The notes under the pieces were generated by a model. It was not told the DNA's origin and did no database searches. It saw only the letters and a list, made by a program, of their open reading frames with translations. From an uncultured Hyphomicrobiales bacterium (lineage in GTDB: Bacteria > Pseudomonadota > Alphaproteobacteria > Rhizobiales > Beijerinckiaceae): a stretch of 10,924 nucleotides of DNA. This document shows positions 1 through 10,924 of this stretch, piece after piece (the stretch's first letter is position 1; the number at the start of each line of letters is the position of its first letter). Location: the NCBI GenBank assembly GCA_903903935.1, contig CAIVAX010000141.1:1-10924 (forward strand), read 5' to 3'. The translations under genes were made by a program, and so were the position numbers.

Positions 1-1655
1 ACCACTTCTTTGGCTGTGTAGAGCAAAGCGCTGCCATGTGACATGAGCGAGCGCGATCCAATCGTGCCATCGCCAATCAGCTTGGGACCATCAGGATCGC
101 TGGCGCGCAGCGTAATCGTCTCAGCATCAAGGCCGAGGATGTCTGCCACCACTTCTGGAAAAGCAGTTTCATGGCCCTGACCTGAGCCGCCGGACAATGT
201 GTATAAGGTTGGATTGCCGGACGAGCCAAATTTGATCGCCACTTCTTCCTTGGGTGCGCCGCCACCACCAGCCGGTTCAATAAAGACGCAGCACGAAATG
301 CCGCGCAATTTGCCCCGTTTGGCAGCCTCTTGGCGCCTTGCCTCAAACCCAGCCCAATTGGAAAATTGCGCCGCTTTGTCGAGCAAGCCCACAGGATCGC
401 CCGTGTCATATTCAACGCCAATCGGGTTCTTATAGGGAAAGGCCTCGCGTGTGATCACATTACGCCGACGAATCTCGACCCGATCAAGACCCATTTCTGC
501 CGCCGCTTCATCGACAAGACGCTCGACCAGATAAGACACATTGGGGCGCGCCGCGCCGCGATAGGCTGTTGTGGGAGTCGTATTGGTCAAAGCCAACTTA
601 TGCAGGCCATGCACTGCAGGAATGGTGTAGAGATTGACGGCATGACCAGCAGGCGGCAGCGTATTGATGAAAGCGCCCGCGCCAGACAGATAAGCGCCGC
701 AATTGACGATCCAGCGATGACGAATGGCGAGAAATTTGCCCTGCGCATCCAGCGCCAATTCGCCCGACATACGCGCGCCGCGCCCATGATGATCGCTGAT
801 AATTGTCTCGCTGCGTGTACCCACCCATTTCACCGGGCGCCCCACATGCTTGGCCGCCAGCAAGATTGAGCAATATTCCGTCTAGGCCTCGCTGCGCACA
901 CCACAGCCACCGCCCACATCCAGCGCATGCACCCGTAATTTATCCGCCGGCACGCCTGTGCCGCCGCTCAAAGAGGCGACCATCAGCGACATGCCCTGCG
1001 TGGGGGCGTAAATATCAAACATGCCCGTTGCGGCATCATAAGTTGCGCTGCACGCCTTGGGCTCCATCGGAGCGCCTACAAGACGCGGCATATCCACGTC
1101 TATACGCGTGATATGCGCAGCTTTGGCAAAAGCCTCATCGGTTTTTTGCTGATCGCCATATTCATATTCAAAACAGAAATTGCCGGGCACATTGGCATAA
1201 AGTTCCGGCGCGCCAGGTGCGAGAGCCGCTTTGGCATCCACAACGGCAGGCAGATCCTCATAATCAACGTGGATGAGTTCGCTGGCCTGTTGCGCAATCT
1301 CCACTGTTTCAGCAATGACGAGAGCAACTTCTTGGCCAATGAAGCGCACGCGCTCTTCAGCCAAAACTTCGCGATGCGGAATTTTGATCATGGCGCCGCC
1401 CTTGCCGGGATAGCGCACCAATTGCGGTGTGGTACCAAAGCCTGCTGCTTTGGTATCAGCGCCGGTGAGGATGGCCAGAACACCGCTCAGCGCTTTGGCT
1501 TTACTGATATCAATTCCCTTGATCCGCGCATGGGCGCGATTAGCGCGCAGATAAGCGGCATAGGCCTGATTGGGAAAATTCCAATCAGAGGTAAATGTGC
1601 CTTGACCAGTGACCAGCCGGAAATCTTCGCGGCGTCCGTGAAATGTCGCGCTCAT
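1..1655 (-). pseudogene. Xanthine dehydrogenase family molybdopterin-binding (large) subunit, interrupted by an amber codon; 3' end outside the window
   Basis: This is the second of two large-subunit genes in the operon. The start is taken as ATG at 1655 rather than the TTG two codons upstream. Residues 5-257 carry the family's N-terminal domain (RREDFRLVTGQG near 8-19) and the start of the first molybdopterin region (DVGGGCGVR near 246-254). Codon 258 (882-884) is TAG. The same frame then stays open for 293 codons to the left edge and keeps clear family motifs: TEYCSILLAAK at 259-269, AYRGAARPN at 364-372 and GQGHE at 492-496. AYRGAAR rather than AYRCSFR excludes form I CO dehydrogenase. The intact neighbour at 3265-5640 aligns throughout and has Tyr where the amber lies. 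The catalytic Glu region is off-window. The gene starts 95 bases after the UbiD stop. A recent nonsense mutation is most likely; a sequencing error or suppression are the alternatives. Family assignment is firm, substrate unknown. Confidence 0.85.
882..884 (-). other. In-frame amber (TAG) codon inside the second large-subunit gene
   Basis: The plus strand reads CTA here, which is TAG in the gene. It follows the codons for GVRSEA and precedes TEYCS. In the intact paralogue the aligned stretch is GTRNATYPEF, so the amber stands at the Tyr position; TAT or TAC to TAG is a single-base change. Six of the seven complete genes in the window end in TGA and one in TAA, so TAG is not a used terminator among them. 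Confidence 0.9.
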
Positions 1656-1750
1656 CGTCAAACCTGCTTTGTGAAACCCAGACGCCGATAGTCGCCTAAT
1701 CTGCTGCGATCGACAAGGGGCAGGGCGCGATGAGAGTGCTTTCTTCAGCT

Positions 1751-3268
1751 TTATTTGAGGAAATAACGCCCCTGATCATCGCGCTCCAGACCCTGATCAC
1801 GCAGCTCATCGAGCTGGCGCACGATCTCGCGGCCATCTCTGCTTCCCAAAGCTGCCATCAGAGCCTCAAAGCGCTTGGGCCCGTCTTCCAGCGCAGCGCG
1901 TAAGGTGGGGAAACGCGCGCCTTCATAGGTCGGCGGGGTTGGTGTGGTCAGTTCCCATTTTGTTGCCTGCGCCATGGGCCATGTCAGATCATAACCAGCC
2001 TTGGCACCTGTGGGCGAGCCATGCAGCGAGGGATCGAGCGGAGACAGCCGCACGCCTGAGACAATGATCAGATCTTTGTCGGGCTGAAAACGTGTGCCGA
2101 GCGCCCATTCCATTTGCTCATTGGAGAAAATGTCAATGTCCGGATCCACCACAAAGGCATTCTTCACCCCAACACTGCCCAGCACTGTGTAGAGCGCGGT
2201 GCGCGCCTCGCCAGGATAACGCTGACGCAAAGAAATGCGCACGCTCATCGAGCCGCCAGACGCAACCGGCGCATAAACAGCAACAGGTTCGCGCACCACT
2301 GGCTTGAGCGCTTCCCACACATTGAGCTCAGCGCGCAAAGCCTCGAGATTGGATGTGTCGGTCATATCCATGCGATTGCCGCTAATGGTCGCGGTGAGAA
2401 ATAAAGCATCGCGACGATGGGTGATGGCCGTCACATGAAAGACGGGATTCATCTTCACCCCGCCATAATAGCCCAGATATTCTCCATAGGGCCCTTCTTT
2501 CTCGACATAGCCGCGCTCATCCAAATAGCCCTCGATGACCATTTCCGCATCCGCAGGCACGCGAATATCGCTGGTGAGACATTTGACCACTGGCAGGGGC
2601 GCAGCGCGCAAGCTTGAGACAAGACCAAGCTCATCCACCGGCACGCGCATGGTCGATGAGACCAGATCAATGGGATGACCGCCAACCACAAAGGCAATTG
2701 GTAGCCTCTCCTTGCGCGCACTCGCGGCCATATAAATCGCGCGCAAATCGCTGGGGGCATTCAGATCCACACCCGCTTCGCGCTTGCCGCGCAGCATTAA
2801 GCGACGATAGCCTGAATTGGTGAGTCCTGTAGCTGGATCAATAACAAAATCCACGGCCGCCATATAGGGCGCCCCATCTGCGGCATGTTGCAAATGAATG
2901 GGCAATTGCGTGAGATCGAGTGCATCGCCGGTGATCACCACTTGCTGAATGGGCGCTTCTTCGCGCGTCAGTTCCACAATCTCGGGCTTTAAGCGCAGAC
3001 GTCTTTGCATTTCCAGCGCCACTTGGCGCGGCTCGACACCAAAGGCCAGAGCCAAGCGGCTGCGCGCGGCGACCACATTGCCCACGAGCTCTTGTTTGTC
3101 TTTGCCGACATTGCGAAACCAAACGGCTTTGGGATTGCCCTGCATGATCGCAGCCAGATCAGCAAAGTCGCAGGGCTCATCATGAATATCCACTTCATCC
3201 ACAGCGCTGAGGCTTTCAATAAAACGGCGCAGACGAAATTGATCGAGATCAAGATTGGTTTTGCTCAT
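1751..3268 (-). CDS. UbiD family decarboxylase (prenylated-FMN dependent)
   Basis: A 505-residue protein, the usual length of this family, which reversibly decarboxylates aromatic, heteroaromatic or alpha,beta-unsaturated acids using prenylated FMN and a divalent metal. Family residues are visible: NSGYRR at 151-156 (Asn metal/phosphate ligand and the active-site Arg region), GGHP at 196-199, VIEG at 244-247 with metal-ligand Glu246, and EGPYGEYLGYY at 258-268, whose two Glu (258 and 263) match the catalytic acid pair. Start ATG overlaps the upstream large-subunit stop as ATGA, with AAGGAC about 8 bases before it, so translational coupling is likely. It is soluble, with no signal peptide. The prenyltransferase UbiX that makes its cofactor is not in the window. 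Its place between two molybdenum-hydroxylase subunits argues for a catabolic role rather than ubiquinone synthesis; HmfF-like furan dicarboxylate decarboxylase is one comparable case, but the substrate is not known. Confidence 0.92.
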   Translation of the reverse strand: MSKTNLDLDQFRLRRFIESLSAVDEVDIHDEPCDFADLAAIMQGNPKAVWFRNVGKDKQELVGNVVAARSRLALAFGVEPRQVALEMQRRLRLKPEIVELTREEAPIQQVVITGDALDLTQLPIHLQHAADGAPYMAAVDFVIDPATGLTNSGYRRLMLRGKREAGVDLNAPSDLRAIYMAASARKERLPIAFVVGGHPIDLVSSTMRVPVDELGLVSSLRAAPLPVVKCLTSDIRVPADAEMVIEGYLDERGYVEKEGPYGEYLGYYGGVKMNPVFHVTAITHRRDALFLTATISGNRMDMTDTSNLEALRAELNVWEALKPVVREPVAVYAPVASGGSMSVRISLRQRYPGEARTALYTVLGSVGVKNAFVVDPDIDIFSNEQMEWALGTRFQPDKDLIIVSGVRLSPLDPSLHGSPTGAKAGYDLTWPMAQATKWELTTPTPPTYEGARFPTLRAALEDGPKRFEALMAALGSRDGREIVRQLDELRDQGLERDDQGRYFLK

Positions 3269-5640
3269 GGCTTTGTCCTTAAGTGCGAGTGCGCCGATTG
3301 AGCGCGTTCAATGGCTGTCCAGATTCGATAGGGCGTTGCTGGCATGTCAAAATGCTCCACACCGAGGGGGCGCAGCGCATCCATAATGGCATTCATGCAC
3401 ACACCAAGCGCGGGCGTTGTGCCGCCCTCGCCGCCCGGGCGCAGGCCAAGGGGATGGCTGCTGGCCGGTGTTTCGCTCAGCTCAGTGATGAAAGAGGGAA
3501 AATCAGCTGCGCGCGGCATGGCATAATCCATGAAAGAGGCCGAGAGCATTTGCCCGCTGCTGCGATCATAAACACACTGCTCCAGCAAAGCCTGACCCGC
3601 ACCTTGTGCTATGCCGCCATGTGTCTGCCCATGCAGAATGAGAGGATTGACGGCAACGCCCACATCATCAATCGCAACATAGCGGATAATCGTCCAGTGT
3701 CCGGTTTGCGGATCAATCTCAATCTCGCAGACCTGTGCGCCATAGGGAAAGGCAAGGCCGGGCGTGATTTGATCGCTCATCGCCTGCAAGGGCCCGCGCA
3801 AATCCTCGGGCAGATCAGCATTGCTTTGGGCCTGCGCTGCAATGGTAAACAGATCCACACTGCGATCCGTGCCATTGATCGTAAAGCGACCCTCAGCAAA
3901 GTGCAGATCTTCACTTGCTGTCTCTAACAGGCGCGCGACAATCTGGCGGGCGCGCTCGAGTATGTCTGTGCTGGCTTGACGAATGACAAGGCTGGCAAAG
4001 CGCATGGAGCGACCCGAATGCGAGCCGCCACCGGCGATCACAAATTGCGTATCGCCATAGCGCACATCGACCCGCTCAAAGTCGACACCCAGCCAATCGC
4101 TCACCAACATGCTGAAGCTGGTTTCATGGCCTTGGCCGGAGGCCTGTGTGCCAATGATCAGCTCAATCCGCCCCTCTGGTGTGATGAGGAGTTCAGCGCG
4201 CTCACGCGGCGCACCGCTGGTTGTCTCGACATAATTGGCAACGCCAATGCCGCGCAATTTGCCCTGGGCAAGCGCCGCTTGTCGGCGTGCTTCAAAGCCT
4301 GCCCAATCGCCCAGCTCCAACGCACGCTCCATTGCCGCGCGATAATCGCCATTGTCATAAGTCACGCCGGCCGCATTGCGATAGGGCATGGCTGAGGCGG
4401 GAATGAGATTGCGACGGCGCAAGTCCACCCGATCAAAGCCACAGCGCAGCGCCGCCAGATCAATCAAGCGCTCCATCGCATACATGGCCTCTGGCCGACC
4501 GGCACTGCGATAGGGAATGGTCGAGGGCGTATTGCTCAATGCCGCACGGCCACGCAAATGCGCCTGATCAATCGCATAGACGCTGGTCATTAATTGCAGG
4601 CCTTTGTTGAGCGGAACAAAGGAGGCCGTATGAGCACCCAGATTGCTGATATTGGAGGTGCGCAGCGCCAGAAATTGCCCCTGCGCATCAAGCGCCAGCT
4701 CCATCTCGACATGCAGATCACGGCCCTGAAAATCCGTCAGAAAGGCCTCTGTTCGGGACGTCACTTGCCGCACAGTGGATTTGAGGCGCCGCGCGGCCCA
4801 CGCAATCAAAACAAATTCGGGATAGGTCGCATTGCGCGTTCCAAAATTGCCGCCCACATCACCGGGCGCAGATATGCGCACTTTGTCGATATGCATGGAA
4901 AGGGCGGCGGCAATCTCTGTGCGCATTTGCACCACGCCAATGCCATGCGAGGCATGCAAGATGAGGCTGTGCTGCGTCTCATCCCAAATGGCAGCAGCAG
5001 CACGCGGCTCTAGATGCACGCCGGTGACGCGCTGGATCTGCGTCACCAGTTTGACGCAATGCTTGGCCTTGGCGAACATCTGTTCTGTTGCAGCTGCATC
5101 GCCCAATTGCGCATCAAGGCATAAATTGCCCGGCACATGCGGCCAGATCTGCGGCGCATCAGGCTTCAGGGCATCAACAGCTTGCGAGACCGAGGGCAAA
5201 GCCTCATAATCAATTTGCACCAATTCAGCGCCAGCCTCAGCATGAGCGCTGCTTGTCGCAATCACAACAGCGACAATCTCGCCGGGATAACGCACGCGCT
5301 CACTGGCGAGCGGAAAATGCTGGGTGATGATGCGCTCCGAGCCATCGGCAAACAGCAGCGGCCTATCAGATCCAATCTTCGAGCCGCCGGTTGCATGGGT
5401 GATGAATTGCAGGCCATCGGCTTTGGCATCTTGCGCGCTGAGCACGGCAACAACGCCGGCTTGTGCAAGAGCCGCTGTTGAATCAAGGGCACGAATGTTT
5501 GCATGCGCATGGGGTGAGCGCACAAAGGCGGCATGCAGCGCGCCGGGCAAATCCAGATCATCGGCAAATTGGCCCTGACCTGTGACAAGCCGCCAATCTT
5601 CCTTGCGGGGCAAGGCCTGCCCAATTCTGGCGCGGGTCAT
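3265..5640 (-). CDS. Xanthine dehydrogenase family protein, molybdopterin-binding (large) subunit
   Basis: An intact 791-residue large subunit of a molybdenum hydroxylase, the enzyme class that hydroxylates aromatic or heteroaromatic carbons with water-derived oxygen. Visible in order: N-terminal domain with KEDWRLVTGQGQFADD near 13-28 and RSPHAHA near 41-47; molybdopterin motif PGDVGGNFG at 259-267; PYRSAGRPE at 376-384; GQGHE at 502-506; and GGEGG at 736-740, where Glu738 fits the catalytic base. PYRSAGR instead of AYRCSFR rules out form I CO dehydrogenase. ATG at 5640 is preferred to the TTG two codons upstream; no strong ribosome binding site precedes either. The 3' end overlaps ubiD by four bases. 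The 2Fe-2S and FAD partner subunits are absent from the window. The molybdopterin/cytosine-dinucleotide cofactor is known for the family. Substrate cannot be assigned. Confidence 0.92.
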   Translation of the reverse strand: MTRARIGQALPRKEDWRLVTGQGQFADDLDLPGALHAAFVRSPHAHANIRALDSTAALAQAGVVAVLSAQDAKADGLQFITHATGGSKIGSDRPLLFADGSERIITQHFPLASERVRYPGEIVAVVIATSSAHAEAGAELVQIDYEALPSVSQAVDALKPDAPQIWPHVPGNLCLDAQLGDAAATEQMFAKAKHCVKLVTQIQRVTGVHLEPRAAAAIWDETQHSLILHASHGIGVVQMRTEIAAALSMHIDKVRISAPGDVGGNFGTRNATYPEFVLIAWAARRLKSTVRQVTSRTEAFLTDFQGRDLHVEMELALDAQGQFLALRTSNISNLGAHTASFVPLNKGLQLMTSVYAIDQAHLRGRAALSNTPSTIPYRSAGRPEAMYAMERLIDLAALRCGFDRVDLRRRNLIPASAMPYRNAAGVTYDNGDYRAAMERALELGDWAGFEARRQAALAQGKLRGIGVANYVETTSGAPRERAELLITPEGRIELIIGTQASGQGHETSFSMLVSDWLGVDFERVDVRYGDTQFVIAGGGSHSGRSMRFASLVIRQASTDILERARQIVARLLETASEDLHFAEGRFTINGTDRSVDLFTIAAQAQSNADLPEDLRGPLQAMSDQITPGLAFPYGAQVCEIEIDPQTGHWTIIRYVAIDDVGVAVNPLILHGQTHGGIAQGAGQALLEQCVYDRSSGQMLSASFMDYAMPRAADFPSFITELSETPASSHPLGLRPGGEGGTTPALGVCMNAIMDALRPLGVEHFDMPATPYRIWTAIERAQSAHSHLRTKP

Positions 5641-5670
5641 GTGCAATCACATAGTGCAAACGATGGTGTT

Positions 5671-5703
5671 TCTGCGGGTTGAGATTTGCTCTCTTCCCGC
5701 AGA
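5671..5703 (-). repeat. Nested perfect inverted repeat between the decarboxylase-like gene and the large subunit
   Basis: Within the 76-base gap, arms TCTGCGGG (5671-5678) and CCCGCAGA (5696-5703) are perfect complements. Inside them, separated by two bases on each side, GAGA (5681-5684) and TCTC (5690-5693) pair again around a 5-base loop. The whole 33-base element is symmetric. No run of T follows the stem on the transcript strand, so it does not look like an intrinsic terminator. It may be an mRNA processing or stability hairpin, or a protein-binding palindrome. Confidence 0.7.
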
Positions 5704-5716
5704 TCTGGTGAAGGGA

Positions 5717-6706
5717 TCAAACAATGATCTCAGTCATCACGCCCTTGGGGAATAATTCATCGGGCGTGGCGTGACGATGGGCGATGCCTTGCTGATAGGT
5801 ATAGAGCAGCATTTGCTCCCATGTCGGGCGGTTTTCTTCAATGCCATAGGGGAAGGGATCGCCATCAAACATATCGCGCATGCGCCGGGCATAAGTTGGC
5901 AACCAAGCCAGCGGATAGCGTGACACAGCCGGATCGAGCAGGCGCTCCAAACTGCGGCGCTTGGATTCTTGGAAGGCATTGACGAGGCTGCGCGCAACCC
6001 AAGGGTTATCTTCCAAAATAGCCTTCTTCATCGCAATAATATGCATGATCGGCCAGACTTTGGTGCGAGCGAAATACTCCTCTTCCATGCCCAGATAATC
6101 GGGATAGAGACGCACCACATTGGGGTCGCCCTTCAGGAAGCACGTGGGTGGGCGGGCAATGATGGCGCAATCAATTTCGCCCGAGGCCAGCATTTCGCTC
6201 AAAGATTTGTCGGCTACGCGGGTAAGCTTCACACCTTCAGGCAGGCTGAGCTCGACTTTTTCAATGCGACCCGGATCATTGGCGCCAGCCTGATACCAAT
6301 GCACATCCTGCAATTTCACGCCGCATTCATTATGCATCCAGCCACGCATATAGACGGCTGCCGAATGGGCCCATTCGGGCGAGCCAATGCGCTTGCCCTT
6401 GAGATCTTGCACCGTCTTAATTCCCGAATTCTTGTTCACATAAAATGAACTGAAGCGAAACAGACGCGAGCAAATGATGGGCAGGCCGATAATGTCGGAA
6501 TTTTCGCGCGTCACCTGAGCGGAGAATTTCGCCAGTGACAATTCGCTCACATCCCATTCGCGATTGAAGGTCTGACGGGCAAAGATCTCATGATGGCCAT
6601 GAGTGAGCCAGACATGGTCAATGCCTTCGGCCTGAACAAGGCCAAAACGGAAATCGCGGAAATGATCATAATCAGTCGTGGCAATACTGAGTTTGAGACG
6701 GCTCAT
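5717..6706 (-). CDS. 4,5-dihydroxyphthalate decarboxylase-like protein (periplasmic-binding-protein fold)
   Basis: A 329-residue protein resembling 4,5-dihydroxyphthalate decarboxylase (Pht5 type), a family with the fold of solute-binding proteins and often misnamed as ABC transporter components. Supporting stretches are REWDVSELSLAKF at 49-61, the RLFRFSSFYVN segment at 81-91, DLKGKRIGSPEW at 101-112, WPIMHIIAMKK at 218-228 and DPFPYGIEENRPTWEQML at 283-300. There is no signal peptide or lipobox and no permease or ATPase gene nearby, which supports a cytoplasmic enzyme. ATG at 6706 is chosen over a TTG six codons upstream because AGGGGG (6713-6718) lies six bases before it. It heads the catabolic unit, 84 bases after copCD, with its own candidate promoter. 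True substrate unknown; the family contains many paralogues of untested function, so a binding-protein role is not fully excluded. Confidence 0.82.
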   Translation of the reverse strand: MSRLKLSIATTDYDHFRDFRFGLVQAEGIDHVWLTHGHHEIFARQTFNREWDVSELSLAKFSAQVTRENSDIIGLPIICSRLFRFSSFYVNKNSGIKTVQDLKGKRIGSPEWAHSAAVYMRGWMHNECGVKLQDVHWYQAGANDPGRIEKVELSLPEGVKLTRVADKSLSEMLASGEIDCAIIARPPTCFLKGDPNVVRLYPDYLGMEEEYFARTKVWPIMHIIAMKKAILEDNPWVARSLVNAFQESKRRSLERLLDPAVSRYPLAWLPTYARRMRDMFDGDPFPYGIEENRPTWEQMLLYTYQQGIAHRHATPDELFPKGVMTEIIV

Positions 6707-6748
6707 TGTCTTCCCCCTATGCAAGCGGAACGCTTCCCTGAGACAGAT

Positions 6749-6777
6749 GGATTAGTGGTCTCAGACCAAGGGGTCAA
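6749..6777 (-). promoter_or_regulatory. Candidate promoter of the catabolic operon
   Basis: Reading the minus strand, TTGACC (6772-6777) matches a -35 box well. After exactly 17 bases comes TAATCC (6749-6754), a weak -10. The predicted start near 6742 gives a leader of about 36 bases to the ATG at 6706. It lies in the gap after copCD, so the catabolic genes probably have their own transcription start. The weak -10 would fit a regulated promoter. Confidence 0.4.
6756..6768. promoter_or_regulatory. Operator-like palindrome inside the candidate promoter spacer
   Basis: TGGTCTCAGACCA is a perfect 6-base inverted repeat around one central base. It lies wholly between the candidate -35 and -10, a classic place for a repressor site. 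The TGGT...ACCA ends recall operators of GntR-family regulators, but the spacing differs from the FadR-type consensus, so the family is a guess. A further inverted copy of part of it, CTGAGAC at 6738-6744, lies 13 bases from GTCTCAG at 6758-6764. No regulator gene is seen in the window. Confidence 0.4.
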
Positions 6778-6790
6778 TAAGCTGGGATGG

Positions 6791-8452
6791 TCAATTCTGG
6801 ATTTTGATGTCATCCTCCAGAATGACTTTTGTAAAGTCATCAATCAGCAGATCGAGCCGGATATGCCAATCACCGGCCTGCGGCAGGACTATGATTCTGC
6901 TCTCCCAAGCGCCTTGGCTGGTGGGTTCCAAAGGGATTTCCATAGCTTCAATGCCAGTTTGAGGATGGGAGGCGTAAAGGGTGGCGCTCATTGGATTCAA
7001 AGGGGTAAAATCACCGGTCTGGAAAAATAGACGGGCTTTGACCCTTCCTTGACGCCCCGGAGAGATCGTAACATCCGCCATCGCTTGACTAGAATGAATA
7101 TGCATCTGGGCGGGCTCATTCTGTGCTTCCAGAACCACGCGCGCAGGCAGAGTAAAGCGCCAGAGCCCGACGAGCGCCAAAATCAGCACGGCTCCAAGGA
7201 TCTCGCCAAGAATGGATCGCCGTAAAGCCAGATAAGCCCATGGGATTTGTGTCTTAAGACGGGGGACGAGGAGCCAGCGATTAGCCGCTGCCAATGCCAG
7301 CAAAATCGTGACAAGTCCGACTTTAGCACACAAGATTCGGCCATAGTCTGTGTTCAGCAGGCTTGCGATCTCCCCCAATTGTACGCGAGATAAAATCAGC
7401 CCTGCAATCAGCGCGAATCCTACAATGGGCAGGGCAAGGTTTGAAAATCGGCTCAACCCTGTCTGGAGATGGTCATTGGCGTCCCGATGCTGCTCATAGA
7501 GAACAGGCAGAGCGCCAATCCATAAGGCCACACCCAGCAAATGCAGAAAAAGAGCCGGCCTTGTCACTGTTTGTGGCTGCGCCGTGCTGGCATGGCCGCT
7601 CAAAGTCAATGCATAACAGCCCATAGCAAGGCAGAGGAATAATCCACTTCGGCTCCAAAGTTTGGCCACGATATGTGAGGGACATGCAGTCAGAAGTCTG
7701 CCTATGAGCATTGCGAACCCAGCAAACACAAAAGTGAAGCGACTGCTTAACTGCCAGCCTGTCAACCAAGCGGGAGATTGGAACAAGCTGAGAATTCCCA
7801 AGCCAAGCGCATCGGCACCATTCAACCCAATGGACATTCCGCTAGAAACTAGCCCTACTTCTAGGAGGCGTTTTGCAAGCTGACGACTTGTGCTTGGATC
7901 CTGAGGGACCACGCTCAACCAAGAGTGACAAAAACCCCCGCCCAGCCCCCCCAGAAGTCCGCAATAGAAAATCCAGCGCATCAGCCAGATCAACATGGTC
8001 AAACGCGCGTCATCGCGAGCGGCATAGCTATCAATCTTGCGATTGGGACTGCCAATCGAAAACACCAATACGCCGCTGACAGGGTGGCCGTCGGCAGAGA
8101 CAATCCGATAATTCATCAAAATTGTGCCGTTCAGCAGGTCATGAGGTGGTGTAATTCTGACCTCGCGGTCCTGAGCTTCAACAGAGTCAGGTGCAAGGCT
8201 GGTGCCGTCCGACTGCACAAAACTAAAAGCCAGCGGTGCTATGCTTTCATTAAAGCGCAGATGAATGGTCTCAGGTGAGGTGCGAAGGACGGCGCCCTGG
8301 ATTGGGCTTGTTTCAAGCAGGCTGGCATGGGCTAGCGCAGGGGCTGACTTGGCAAACAAGATAAAAACAAGCGCGATCGCGCCCAAGCGTGACCCTGTTT
8401 GAAGTAGGGCCACGCAAGTTCTTTTTAGCAAGTGCATTTTGAAATGCGTCAC
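6791..8452 (-). CDS. CopC-CopD fusion, copper transport protein
   Basis: A 553-residue inner-membrane protein joining CopC and CopD. Residues 1-41 are a signal peptide with hydrophobic core near 24-34, probably cleaved after ALA so the mature chain begins HASLLETSP. His42 with Asp121 and His123 of the DGHP motif (121-124) match the CopC Cu(II) site. Residues about 150-435 hold some eight membrane segments of CopD, with GHAS (286-289) and HLLGVALWIGALP (304-316) as conserved His-bearing motifs. A further domain at 440-553 is probably periplasmic; it starts with MHIH (450-453) and may bind metal. CopCD proteins are linked to copper import or handling. The GTG start at 8452 overlaps the ycnI stop as GTGA, implying coupled translation; ATG five codons later (8437) is an alternative. 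It is the last gene of the copper unit. Confidence 0.92.
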   Translation of the reverse strand: MTHFKMHLLKRTCVALLQTGSRLGAIALVFILFAKSAPALAHASLLETSPIQGAVLRTSPETIHLRFNESIAPLAFSFVQSDGTSLAPDSVEAQDREVRITPPHDLLNGTILMNYRIVSADGHPVSGVLVFSIGSPNRKIDSYAARDDARLTMLIWLMRWIFYCGLLGGLGGGFCHSWLSVVPQDPSTSRQLAKRLLEVGLVSSGMSIGLNGADALGLGILSLFQSPAWLTGWQLSSRFTFVFAGFAMLIGRLLTACPSHIVAKLWSRSGLFLCLAMGCYALTLSGHASTAQPQTVTRPALFLHLLGVALWIGALPVLYEQHRDANDHLQTGLSRFSNLALPIVGFALIAGLILSRVQLGEIASLLNTDYGRILCAKVGLVTILLALAAANRWLLVPRLKTQIPWAYLALRRSILGEILGAVLILALVGLWRFTLPARVVLEAQNEPAQMHIHSSQAMADVTISPGRQGRVKARLFFQTGDFTPLNPMSATLYASHPQTGIEAMEIPLEPTSQGAWESRIIVLPQAGDWHIRLDLLIDDFTKVILEDDIKIQN

Positions 8453-8979
8453 CGATTTGGCGCTATGATTTTCAGGCCGGGGGCAGGCGATTTATAATCG
8501 TCAGCTGGTTTGCCAGCGGCCGGAATCTCGATCCAGCGGTTAAAGCCCGTCTCACATTCCTGCACGGTGGGGAAATAGAGTGTTGAGCCGGCCTCCAAAT
8601 CACCAGCCAATGTTCCTGTCATGATGAATTCGTCATAATGCGCATCAAGCAGGCGACCGGTCCAGATCACTTCGCGCACGCCCTCGCTGAGCTTGGCGTG
8701 CTCAGTTCCAAAGGTTTTTGCATAGGGGCCACGTACTGTTTCAAGCGTCCAACCTGCCTTGGGCATGGGCTTCACATTAATGTAACCCTCGGGAATGCGA
8801 ATGCGTACTTTGAGGGTCGGGCTTTCGCCGCAGCCATGGCCAATGCGCATAATGGCTTTGTAGCTGCTGTTCGGGCTGGCTTGCTTCACTTCAAGAGTAG
8901 CATGAGCCAGAGCTGATGAGGTGGTGAGTGTCAGCAGAGTAACAATAGCGCAGGCGCGCCTGATGAAAGGAGATGTCAT
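8449..8979 (-). CDS. ycnI: YcnI family (DUF1775) copper-binding protein
   Basis: A 176-residue exported protein. Residues 1-25 form a signal peptide ending SSALA, leaving His26 at the mature N terminus (HATLEVKQASPNSSY). In the characterised YcnI of Bacillus subtilis the N-terminal His forms a single-histidine brace for Cu(II) with a nearby conserved Trp; here Trp149 in NRWIEIP is the likely equivalent. IGHGC at 46-50, and Cys50 with Cys142, are conserved-looking, and the two Cys could form a disulfide. The protein is expected in the periplasm, possibly passing copper to CopCD, whose GTG start overlaps its stop codon. The ATG at 8979 is preceded only by a weak AGAGA-type site, so expression may depend on the gene before it, 108 bases upstream. 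No C-terminal membrane anchor is present, unlike many Gram-positive members. Confidence 0.9.
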   Translation of the reverse strand: MTSPFIRRACAIVTLLTLTTSSALAHATLEVKQASPNSSYKAIMRIGHGCGESPTLKVRIRIPEGYINVKPMPKAGWTLETVRGPYAKTFGTEHAKLSEGVREVIWTGRLLDAHYDEFIMTGTLAGDLEAGSTLYFPTVQECETGFNRWIEIPAAGKPADDYKSPAPGLKIIAPNR

Positions 8980-9087
8980 GTTCAGTCTCTAAAATTGGAT
9001 GTGACAGAAGCGATCAATCCACACACGCAACCCGTCTTGGGCATAAGCCAAGCAGGATCGAAGGGGTGATCGCGATCTTTGCTGAAG
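8980..9087 (-). promoter_or_regulatory. Gap between cruR-like leader and ycnI; possible site of conditional termination
   Basis: This 108-base gap has no intrinsic terminator and no clear promoter. On the transcript strand its first half has C-rich tracts (CACCCC, CGATCCTGC, TGCCC), as expected of a Rho loading region, though that is only suggestive. It also holds the 10-base palindrome GATCGCGATC (9068-9077) and a 20-codon ORF at 8982-9044. In the Bordetella CruR system Rho-dependent termination acts between the first and second genes. The same role here is inferred by analogy only. Confidence 0.3.
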
Positions 9088-9504
9088 TCAGACCATATTA
9101 GCTGGCGGCGCTCTGGGTGCGCCGGGTGCTGTTGTCAATCGCCAGAGCCGAGTGCTGGAAACGGGCCAATCCAGACATTGTATGTCGTCTGTGAGATCGG
9201 GACGGGTTCCATAGGCCCTGCCTGAGGCAGAGAGTTTTGGGGCAATAAAATCTGCCGATAGGGTCAGGCAGGCTTCATCGCAACACGAAATGTCATCTTG
9301 TGGCAGATCCGGTCTGGCGGGGGCCTGATGCCCCATCTTCCCTGTTTCCCCCGACTGAGTGAGGCAAAGTACGCCCATTGTCTCCAAGGGGGCGGCACTG
9401 GCGGGCAAAGGGGCGAGGAGAGCGCGAAGAAATACTAAATAAATCAGTACAATAGAAGTAAACAGGCGGAGCCATCTGGCGCATTCTGCTATGATAATCG
9501 GCAT
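9088..9504 (-). CDS. CruR/DUF2946-like copper-responsive leader protein with C-terminal RAPP arrest motif
   Basis: A 138-residue small protein heading the copper unit. Residues 12-32 are strongly hydrophobic and followed by PASAAP, so it is a signal peptide or membrane anchor. The rest is probably periplasmic, with Cys47, the cluster CCDEAC at 74-79, Cys110, and a C terminus ending RAPPANMV (RAPP at 131-134). CruR of Bordetella pertussis, a DUF2946 protein, senses copper while nascent through a Cys motif and arrests translation at a C-terminal RAPP, controlling downstream genes. The order here (leader, ycnI, copCD) and the RAPP fit. The Cys motif is CxxxC (with one extra Cys) rather than CxxC. 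ATG at 9504 is preferred: GGAG (9508-9511) precedes it closely and the candidate promoter lies just upstream; a TTG at 9606 would begin upstream of the predicted transcription start. Membership was judged by eye. Confidence 0.7.
   Translation of the reverse strand: MPIIIAECARWLRLFTSIVLIYLVFLRALLAPLPASAAPLETMGVLCLTQSGETGKMGHQAPARPDLPQDDISCCDEACLTLSADFIAPKLSASGRAYGTRPDLTDDIQCLDWPVSSTRLWRLTTAPGAPRAPPANMV
9103..9114 (-). promoter_or_regulatory. RAPP codons, putative translation-arrest site
   Basis: AGA GCG CCG CCA encodes Arg-Ala-Pro-Pro, four codons before the stop (after ANMV). RAPP is the known arrest motif of ApdA/ApdP-type arrest peptides and of the CruR leader. Its place at the extreme C terminus of a protein that heads a copper operon makes a stalling role plausible. 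The arrest itself is inferred. Confidence 0.55.
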
Positions 9505-9546
9505 TTGCTCCAACACCAGATGGCCAGAAAGGGTTAAGAGATCAGA

Positions 9547-9575
9547 CTTATAATCGCACAATATTGCCCGCGCAA
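9547..9575 (-). promoter_or_regulatory. Candidate promoter of the copper operon
   Basis: On the minus strand TTGCGC (9570-9575) and TATAAG (9547-9552) are separated by exactly 17 bases. The predicted start near 9540 leaves a 36-base leader before the ATG at 9504. It is divergent from the trcR promoter candidate, which lies within about 40 bases. No obvious copper-regulator box was recognised. Confidence 0.42.
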
Positions 9576-9587
9576 ATCGGTTTGTGA

Positions 9588-9616
9588 TTGCGTCTTGATC
9601 TCGCAAGTCTTATATT
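9588..9616 (+). promoter_or_regulatory. Candidate promoter of trcR
   Basis: TTGCGT (9588-9593) is followed after 17 bases by TATATT (9611-9616), which differs from the -10 consensus at one position. The predicted start near 9623 gives a leader of about 97 bases containing two hairpins before the ATG at 9720. Confidence 0.38.
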
Positions 9617-9647
9617 TTGAGCAGTTCCCGTCATTCTTGATGAGATT

Positions 9648-9679
9648 GAGGCTTTGCCTCGGCCGGGTGGCCACCCGGC
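9648..9679 (+). repeat. Two adjacent hairpins in the trcR leader
   Basis: GAGGC-TTT-GCCTC (9648-9660) is a 5-base stem with a 3-base loop. One base later GCCGGGTGGCCACCCGGC (9662-9679) is a perfect 18-base palindrome, able to form a 7-base stem with a GGCC loop. Neither is followed by a T-run, so they are not typical terminators on either strand. They may regulate trcR translation or stability, or serve as a protein-binding palindrome at DNA level. Confidence 0.65.
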
Positions 9680-9719
9680 AAGCCCGCCCTATTGCCTGTG
9701 AGCCGATTGGAGACCGAAG

Positions 9720-10436
9720 ATGAGCAATGCCCCGCTAATGCCCAAGGCAACCGCTGTCTGGCTGGTGGAAAACACATCCCTCACTTTCGATCAGATTGCT
9801 GAATTCTGCAAATTGCATCCCCTTGAGGTCAAGGGCATTGCCGATGGCGAAGTTGCAGCTGGCATTAAGGGCCATGATCCCGTCACCTCCAATCAGCTGA
9901 CCCGCGAAGAGATTGCCCGTGGCGAGGCTAATGAGTCCCATCGCCTTTCTTTGGCTGTGGCCAAAGTGCGCATGCCCGAAATCAAGAAAGCGGGCGGCCC
10001 GCGTTATACGCCTCTGTCCCGCCGTCAGGATCGCCCCAATGCCATTTTGTGGTTGTTGCGCAACCATCCTGAATTGAAAGACGCGCAGATCATGCGTCTG
10101 GTTGGCACAACTAAATCAACCATTGCCGCTATTCGTGATCGCACGCATTGGAATTCAGCCACGCTCTCGCCGCTTGATCCAGTTACTCTTGGCCTGTGCT
10201 CGCAGATCAATCTCGATCTTGAGGTCAATCGTGCCAATAAGGATCGTCCGCAGCGCGAGATCGATGGCGGCCAGACTCTCGTGTCGGCAGAAATCACGAC
10301 AGCGCCGCGCGCGCCCGTCACCCAGATGGATGTCTTTGGTACGACCACACCCGCCTCGCAGCCGCAGCCCAGCTCGGAAGATCTGGATCTTGATTCAGTC
10401 TTTGCCAAGCTGAAGGATCTGAAGATCAAGGATTGA
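9720..10436 (+). CDS. trcR: TrcR, DUF1013 family cell-cycle transcriptional regulator
   Basis: A 238-residue soluble protein of the DUF1013 family, named TrcR and annotated as a cell-cycle transcriptional regulator in alphaproteobacteria. Residues 11-45 (TAVWLVENTSLTFDQIAEFC...) and 107-143 (NAILWLLRNHPELKDAQIMR...) both look like helix-turn-helix units with the same pattern: A-x-WL, x-N/E, then a D-x-I core. Each is followed further on by a D-P-V triplet (53-55 and 153-155), suggesting an internal duplication. Residues about 175-225 are Pro/Ser/Thr/Gln-rich and probably disordered, before a short charged C-terminal helix (222-238). GGAG at 9709-9712 lies seven bases before the ATG. The gene is transcribed away from the copper operon and toward fadD. 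The function is known only from the family. Confidence 0.92.
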   Translation: MSNAPLMPKATAVWLVENTSLTFDQIAEFCKLHPLEVKGIADGEVAAGIKGHDPVTSNQLTREEIARGEANESHRLSLAVAKVRMPEIKKAGGPRYTPLSRRQDRPNAILWLLRNHPELKDAQIMRLVGTTKSTIAAIRDRTHWNSATLSPLDPVTLGLCSQINLDLEVNRANKDRPQREIDGGQTLVSAEITTAPRAPVTQMDVFGTTTPASQPQPSSEDLDLDSVFAKLKDLKIKD

Positions 10437-10485
10437 CGTCTGTCTGACTTCGCCTGCTTTTAAGTGCTGTAATCCTGCCTTTGAA

Positions 10486-10523
10486 GATTGCGTGAGGCGC
10501 CTTGTTTTGGCATGCTCGCAATC
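10486..10523 (+). repeat. Imperfect inverted repeat between trcR and fadD
   Basis: GATTGCG (10486-10492) pairs perfectly with CGCAATC (10517-10523). With one bulged base GAG/CTC extends the stem, and GCC/GGC (10499-10501 and 10509-10511) can pair inside around a T-rich loop. No T-run follows, so it is at best a weak or Rho-independent-like end of trcR. The rest of the 107-base gap shows nothing clear. Confidence 0.4.
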
Positions 10524-10543
10524 TAAAATGTCAGGGAGGCATT

Positions 10544-10924
10544 ATGTCGGGCGATCATTCTTGGTTTGCGCATTATCCAGCTGGTGTCCCGCTACAGATC
10601 AGCCCAGATCATTCGCCCACTGTCGTTCATATTTTTGAACAGGCATTAGCCACTTATGGCGCGCGCCCGGCTCTGGAGAGCTTTGGCAAGCAAATGACCT
10701 TTGCCGAGCTTGGGGCTGCAGCACATCAGATTGCCGCAGGTCTGCAGGGGATGAATTTGCAGCGTGGCGATCGCATTGCCATCATGATGCCCAATGTCAT
10801 GGTTTCTGAGCCCGTTCTATTTGGAATTTTGCTGTCGGGATTTGTCGTCGTAAATGTCAATCCGCAATATACGGCGCGCGAACTCGTTCATCAGCTCAAT
10901 GATAGCGGCGCAAAAATTTTATTC
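10544..10924 (+). CDS. fadD: Long-chain-fatty-acid--CoA ligase, N-terminal part (cut by window edge)
   Basis: 127 codons are visible from ATG at 10544, with a strong AGGGAGG ribosome site at 10533-10539. The N-terminal portion of an AMP-binding acyl-CoA synthetase is recognisable: the start MSGDHSWFAHYPAGVP, then TYGARPALESFGKQMTFAEL near 38-57, RGDRIAIMMPN at 74-84, and FGILLSGFVVVNVNPQYTARELVHQL from 93 on, which matches FadD-type ligases that activate fatty acids with ATP and CoA at the inner membrane. The ATP-binding and adenylate-forming motifs lie beyond the window. It follows trcR by 107 bases on the same strand. Acyl-CoA synthetase is near certain; the chain-length preference is inferred. 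Confidence 0.85.
   Translation, partial: MSGDHSWFAHYPAGVPLQISPDHSPTVVHIFEQALATYGARPALESFGKQMTFAELGAAAHQIAAGLQGMNLQRGDRIAIMMPNVMVSEPVLFGILLSGFVVVNVNPQYTARELVHQLNDSGAKILF

Follow-up and report, generated by a model that had tools for sequence, protein, structure and literature searches.

A probable copper-sensing arrest peptide encoded ahead of ycnI-copCD in a Beijerinckiaceae bacterium

What is the role of the small open reading frame (ORF) that precedes the copper genes ycnI-copCD in an uncultured Hyphomicrobiales bacterium of the family Beijerinckiaceae? The window analyzed here is a stretch of 10,924 nucleotides (nt) (GenBank assembly GCA_903903935.1, contig CAIVAX010000141.1, positions 1 to 10,924), and on its minus strand the ORF, ycnI and copCD follow one another in this order. 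The ORF (9088..9504) encodes a leader peptide like DUF2946, CruR and CutF proteins, with 138 amino acids (aa) if the ATG at 9504 is taken as the start, starts further upstream being possible. It carries the sequence CCDEAC, a putative copper site (residues 74-79, 9268..9285), and a RAPP arrest motif (residues 131-134, 9103..9114), which is followed by ANMV and TGA and so stands four residues ahead of the end; a first-pass annotation made from the letters alone had described the same features, and we read them likewise. On balance, we take the leader to be an arrest peptide that senses copper, belongs to the DUF2946 (CruR/CutF) kind and controls ycnI-copCD in cis. That it acts in cis through a presumed ribosome arrest is very likely.

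A ycnI search of 199 genomes of the same family found YcnI in 74, the window's included, and all 78 ycnI loci (L numbers below) were read. An adjacent leader was defined as a same-strand ORF whose last 15 residues include R[AG]PP and which ends between -320 and +80 nt from the inferred ycnI start. Such a leader was present at 65 of the 78 loci including the window (64 of 77 without it), and at 53 of 78 when leaders also had to be 60 aa or longer and to contain C..C or C...C. The R[AG]PP tail occurred in 0 of 1379 control ORFs (at least 60 aa, from both strands of the same loci, with ends not near the ycnI start). The R[AG]PP tail ahead of ycnI is not chance, and the conservation of RAPP in orthologues, on which the first-pass annotation had staked its proposal, was borne out. 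RAPP and RGPP were about equally frequent (26 and 27 among the 53 loci with C..C or C...C), and the motif stood 2-9 residues ahead of the C terminus in the 53 leaders measured.

The 13 loci of the 78 without an adjacent R[AG]PP leader were L042, L056, L060, L078, L083, L092, L095, L102, L103, L107, L108 (contig edge), L110 and L111 (GAPP variant). At L056 and L060, DUF2946 was matched above its cut-off about 1.5 kb ahead of ycnI, with ORFs that by eye are PCuAC-like and SCO-like in between. A search at the genus level gave 55 ycnI matches in 45 of 51 genomes, 19 of these in loci not read. The second reading covered 28 loci, 27 from the genus search together with L115, among which L134 and L141 belong to genomes already represented in the 78; an adjacent leader was found at 21 of the 28. 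Its exceptions included L137, with only a truncated GARAPPSV end at the contig edge, and L140, 49 nt from a contig edge, and at L130 and L131 no leader was seen adjoining ycnI.

Could the leader instead be a copper protein anchored in the membrane that serves as a chaperone or structural component, its RAPP end being non-regulatory? Its N-terminal helix and Cys cluster would suit such a protein: residues 1-37 (9394..9504) form a putative signal or anchor segment, in which residues 4-30 are predicted as one hydrophobic helix (predicted local distance difference test, pLDDT, 95-96 over residues 11-30), and the AxA site ASA at residues 35-37 would allow cleavage of this segment. Past the first helix, however, the prediction is largely coil of low confidence, apart from a short helix at 74-85 (mean pLDDT 63), which might suit a leader whose action takes place during its own synthesis. 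The contrast of 65 of 78 loci with 0 of 1379 control ORFs also argues against a non-regulatory RAPP end, as does the pairing of the tail mRNA with the Shine-Dalgarno (SD) sequence across the relatives as a set (see below), and we regard this explanation as very unlikely.

The Cys residues were conserved as well. The leaders were selected by their R[AG]PP tail, so the invariance of the tail in an alignment proves nothing; the Cys columns were not used in the selection. The alignment of 62 leaders comprised 59 of the 64 other leaders, the window leader, and its homologues P0002 and P0003 (48-49% identity), and left out L050, L052, L059, L073 and L114. C47, C74 and C75 were kept in at least 90% of the 62. 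Among the 65 leaders, 47 had CxxxC, 6 had CxxC without CxxxC, 11 had CC only, and 1 had another pattern; because 47 of 65 have it, CxxxC is the ordinary form in leaders of this family. The first-pass annotation had taken CxxxC for a new variant, which does not hold, since the same motif is in print for CutF (PMC9973294). The spacing from the Cys motif to RAPP was 41-51 residues, most commonly 45-46, in the 53 of 65 family leaders with a measured CxxxC or CxxC, and in the window leader the last Cys is 51 residues from RAPP.

Comparison with known systems places the leader close to CruR of Bordetella pertussis (bp2923), a DUF2946 upstream ORF before bfrG (PMC9426467). Both are the first gene of a copper operon, and both are exported-type proteins of about 140 aa with a Cys pair followed by RAPP near the C terminus; they also share an upstream semi-conserved Cys, a stretch richer in C than in G, and a long spacer (162 nt for CruR, 108 in the window). 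Arrest of CruR at RAPP has been toeprinted in vitro (PMC12992588). The window leader differs in having CxxxC (with CC) where CruR has CXXC, in a distance of 51 rather than 45 residues from the last Cys to RAPP, and in its target, ycnI-copCD rather than a TonB receptor; the Rho step is demonstrated for CruR and possible for the window. Thus, of the likeness to CruR claimed by the first-pass annotation, the RAPP motif, the place at the head of a copper operon and the affinity to DUF2946 (weak in the window) stood. A further CruR trait, CXXC with its spacing of about 45 residues to RAPP, was not found in the window leader.

The same annotation had spoken of a variant with new targets. YcnI and CopC are, however, already on record as members of operons in which a DUF2946 gene comes first (Roy et al. 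2022, PMC9426467), and YcnI family proteins are among the enriched targets of RAPP/RGPP leaders (EMBO J 2025, PMC12992588). The YcnI class of RAPP/RGPP arrest peptides in the latter paper has the same arrest motif and the same downstream family as the window; it is given in bulk across genomes together with Streptomyces examples, and the parts of that paper used here do not describe an SD hairpin. The literature searched, supplements being outside its scope, yielded no account of a hairpin between leader and SD in the YcnI class. The type of switch and the ycnI target are therefore already in print, and what is added here is the leader-SD pairing in relatives, which suggests a mechanistic lead.

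How would an arrest at the end of the leader reach ycnI? Pairing with the ycnI SD was tested at 62 of the 65 leader loci (L047, L059 and L085 were dropped, having no usable ATG for ycnI), where the median spacer from leader stop to ycnI is 47 nt. A tail consisted of the leader's last 48 nt and up to 10 spacer bases, and the own tail of each locus was compared with those of other loci. Own tails paired with the SD at a mean of -17.7 kcal/mol and tails from other loci at -13.5 kcal/mol (Wilcoxon p 1.7e-9, n=62), and the own tail was in the best 5% at 24 of 62 loci, the remainder not being individually notable. When the loci were grouped by genus, with the window as a group of its own beside 20 genera, the own tail was favored in 17 of 21 groups (p 5e-5), and it was also favored over same-genus tails at 33 of 44 loci (p 3e-4), these being the loci of the 62 that fall in genus groups of at least 3. 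No such effect was seen when ycnI codons 2-10 served as a control target (p 0.30, 5 of 62 in the best 5%). Full folds pointed in the same direction, with the SD 0.38 unpaired with own tails and 0.47 with swapped ones. Column-wise covariation in 13 loci was mixed: cells were paired in 73.8% versus 69.4% after shuffling (0 of 500 shuffles as high), and shuffles reached the observed score in 2, the both-side changes in 22 and the pair types in 233 of 500. Because of this mixed outcome, we relied on the tail-swap tests, which show that in the relatives as a set the leader's 3′ end pairs specifically with its own ycnI SD.

The paired 5′ arm lay on average 72% inside the footprint of a ribosome with the motif's first Pro in the P site, and at least half of it was within this footprint at 53 of 62 loci; chance alone would put about half of the arm there, since the footprint covers roughly half of the stretch available for pairing. 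Long-spacer loci paired less, 2 of 9 being in the best 5% as compared with 24 of 53 short-spacer loci (p 0.005). For the short-spacer relatives, the RNA evidence points to SD unmasking rather than Rho. A ribosome stalled there would hold one arm of the hairpin and leave the ycnI SD unmasked, as for CutF of Rhodobacter capsulatus, encoded before cutO (PMC9973294, PMC8456105), whose stem-loop over the cutO SD is comparable to the SD-pairing leader ends of the window's relatives. A stall that opens a hairpin over the next SD also resembles the SecM type (as set out in PMC9973294); SecM senses protein export, whereas the window leader is proposed to sense copper. Plain translational coupling or polarity, in which the leader merely holds ribosomes on the transcript as far as ycnI and senses no copper, would be in keeping with the short spacers of these 62 loci. 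Yet it leaves both the Cys cluster and the arrest motif unexplained, and the window's own spacer is 108 nt (8980..9087); we consider it highly improbable.

The window belongs to a lineage with longer spacers. A YcnI tree groups it with L115, L117, L118 and L125 (support 81/46; 100/97 for the four without L125), and the leader is followed by spacers of 108 nt in the window, 102 in L115, 112 in L117, about 106 in L125 and about 137 in L118, those of L117, L118 and L125 ending at a PCuAC-like gene and the L118 and L125 values being counted to it by eye. A clear SD hairpin with the leader end was sought in the window and rejected, the SD being 0.64 unpaired with the last 48 nt, the same as with the leader masked (0.63-0.64). 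With longer tails, it was 0.40 (60 nt), 0.44 (72), 0.50 (90) and 0.57 (150) unpaired, its partners in these folds lying around -60 nt from the leader end, upstream of and outside a ribosome stalled at RAPP. In L115, leader-SD pairing was absent, and the SD pairs only locally in the fold.

The window does have a stretch of C over G (9041..9290, C-G = 0.096), a possible Rho utilization (rut) region that runs from the second half of the leader into the spacer; this value was reached or exceeded in 1.4% of 250-nt windows on the same strand. The putative rut site of CruR was mapped to such a stretch (PMC9426467), and for these two reasons a Rho step is plausible in the window. By analogy with CruR, Rho is a serious candidate for the coupling step here, if somewhat short of an even chance, and in the window's lineage anti-termination against Rho by the stalled ribosome, as for CruR, is more likely than SD unmasking. 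Tentatively, and with rather more doubt, we suggest that one family of RAPP/RGPP leaders may use two output devices, an SD hairpin where the spacer is short and Rho-type antitermination in the window's lineage; in the short-spacer relatives, the mRNA around the arrest codons would then be the anti-SD arm, kept by matched changes. On the window's side, this suggestion draws on a swap test that covered two members of the lineage, the window and L115.

In which direction would copper act? We propose that when copper is scarce the ribosome would stall at RAPP and the downstream genes would be expressed, and that copper, once bound by CCDEAC of the nascent chain (C47 perhaps taking part), would release the stall and lower expression. 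It is likely that copper, through such presumed binding, switches ycnI-copCD off; this sign is favored because YcnI and CopCD look like uptake genes, and such genes are expected to be silent when copper is present, as happens with CruR. In B. subtilis starved of copper, the CopCD protein YcnJ is important for growth (PMC13344008), and YcnI is homologous to PcuD, from an operon implicated in copper acquisition (PMC8424229). CutF suggests the reverse logic, in which copper would strengthen the stall or slow export of the nascent chain and ycnI-copCD would go up with copper. Like the window leader, CutF is a cis-acting leader of a copper operon with a CxxxC motif (CDEAC, residues 75-79, in the window) and a proline-rich C terminus; it unfolds a stem-loop lying over the SD of the gene that follows (PMC9973294), and the family relatives have SD-pairing tails at a median spacer of 47 nt. 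However, the CutF target is a detoxifying oxidase, for which copper raises expression of cutO, whereas YcnI and CopCD look like uptake or delivery proteins (PMC13344008, PMC8424229); the proline-rich end of CutF differs, and the window has a CruR-type RAPP, while the last 48 nt of its leader do not clearly pair with the SD. We judge the reverse logic unlikely and retain repression by copper.

Several observations weigh against the account preferred here. The published sign for CutF is the opposite one. The profile search that the first-pass annotation had proposed did find similarity of the window leader to Pfam DUF2946 (PF11162), covering positions 2-117 of the 117-position profile, but at E 0.022 and 15.9 bits it stays below the cut-off of 23.7. 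The pairing tests ran in the opposite direction in 4 of 21 groups, namely g10, g12, g39 and the window, whose own tail ranks 0.64-0.65 for SD pairing and so is no better than others' tails; the folds with 60- to 90-nt tails (SD 0.40-0.50 unpaired) would make some SD masking possible in the window. The place of the C-over-G stretch was picked after its profile had been seen, the Rho idea rests on base composition, and C over G is found family-wide in leaders and spacers rather than specifically at long-spacer loci. Finally, in L115 (4001-4372), the nearest relative with DNA, and also in L116, whose leader and spacer are identical to those of L115, the leader as assembled has an in-frame stop. 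This stop falls between the first conserved Cys and CCDEAC, and the protein record P0003, otherwise alike, is without it.

In the aligned set, DUF2946 matched 28 of 62 leaders at E<=0.1 (best 4.8e-8), and among the matches listed five ycnI leaders, those of L044, L048, L053, L105 and L114, were over the cut-off. Proteins with names from Enterovirga, Methylobacterium, Methylorubrum and Microvirga were reached by a leader profile search; UniRef labels the one from Enterovirga "DUF2946 domain-containing", and NCBI calls it hypothetical. One relative, P0008, carries the UniRef name "DUF2946 domain-containing protein". NCBIfam had no family for the leader and none for YcnI. Among the matches listed, DUF2946 occurred up to 9 times in one genome (same-family G017, G151, G161, G177 and others), partly in divergent neighboring pairs, e.g., G042:C11 and G161:C1.

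Behind the window leader, ycnI (8449..8979) encodes a DUF1775 copper-binding protein (Pfam E 1.9e-38), and copCD (6791..8452) a CopC-CopD fusion, a putative copper importer (Pfam CopC 2.8e-18, CopD 2e-20). The two genes overlap by 4 nt, and spacing and strand lead us to infer that leader, ycnI and copCD form one operon. The first-pass annotation was right that a copper chaperone and a transporter follow the leader, yet the transporter lies outside the span of 8449..9504 that it gave. In the window and L115 the leader is followed by ycnI-copCD (the L115 genes being assigned by likeness to the window's), and in L117, L118 and L125 by a gene that by eye is PCuAC-like and then by ycnI. The leaders of these three have SCCDEGCL or CCDEGCL where the window has SCCDEACL, and are similar to the window leader at E 6e-10 to 1e-8. 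Judged from this gene order, the window's lineage appears to have seen either a gain or a loss of PCuAC at the position between leader and ycnI. YcnI was fused to PCuAC in 5 of 5 long ycnI ORFs scanned (L048, L057, L081, L084 and L101), with SCO1 next after the fusion in L048. Among 100 loci with 900 nt of downstream sequence (a few genomes being counted twice), only 33 had a CopC/CopD match, which makes ycnI-copCD one among several types of operon. By their predicted families, the genes behind the leaders are all copper delivery or uptake genes.

As for the surroundings, trcR (9720-10436) is divergent from leader-ycnI-copCD. Beyond copCD, at 882-6724 on the minus strand, the window has an NMT1-like binding protein, two molybdopterin-binding dehydrogenase ORFs and a UbiD-like decarboxylase, and a closely similar NMT1-like ORF likewise stands behind copCD in L115 (by eye). 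Within the leader, the GAPRAP codons (9106-9123) are predicted to fold into a small stem, and its wobble positions show a matched difference between the window and L115 (GGC/GCG versus GGA/GCT); this change in one wobble pair was rejected as evidence, two sequences being too few. An Rfam search gave no match and a sigma-70 promoter scan found none, and the single terminator-like site is inside ycnI and within chance.

In summary, these data place ycnI-copCD, an operon of the copper-uptake type, under a likely nascent-chain copper sensor. The order leader-ycnI-copCD had earlier been listed in bulk, and in the literature searched, as far as the parts used extend, we met no gene-by-gene examination of it. 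The leader-SD pairing offers a coupling step that can be tested, and the two spacer types would allow translational and transcriptional output to be compared within one sensor family.

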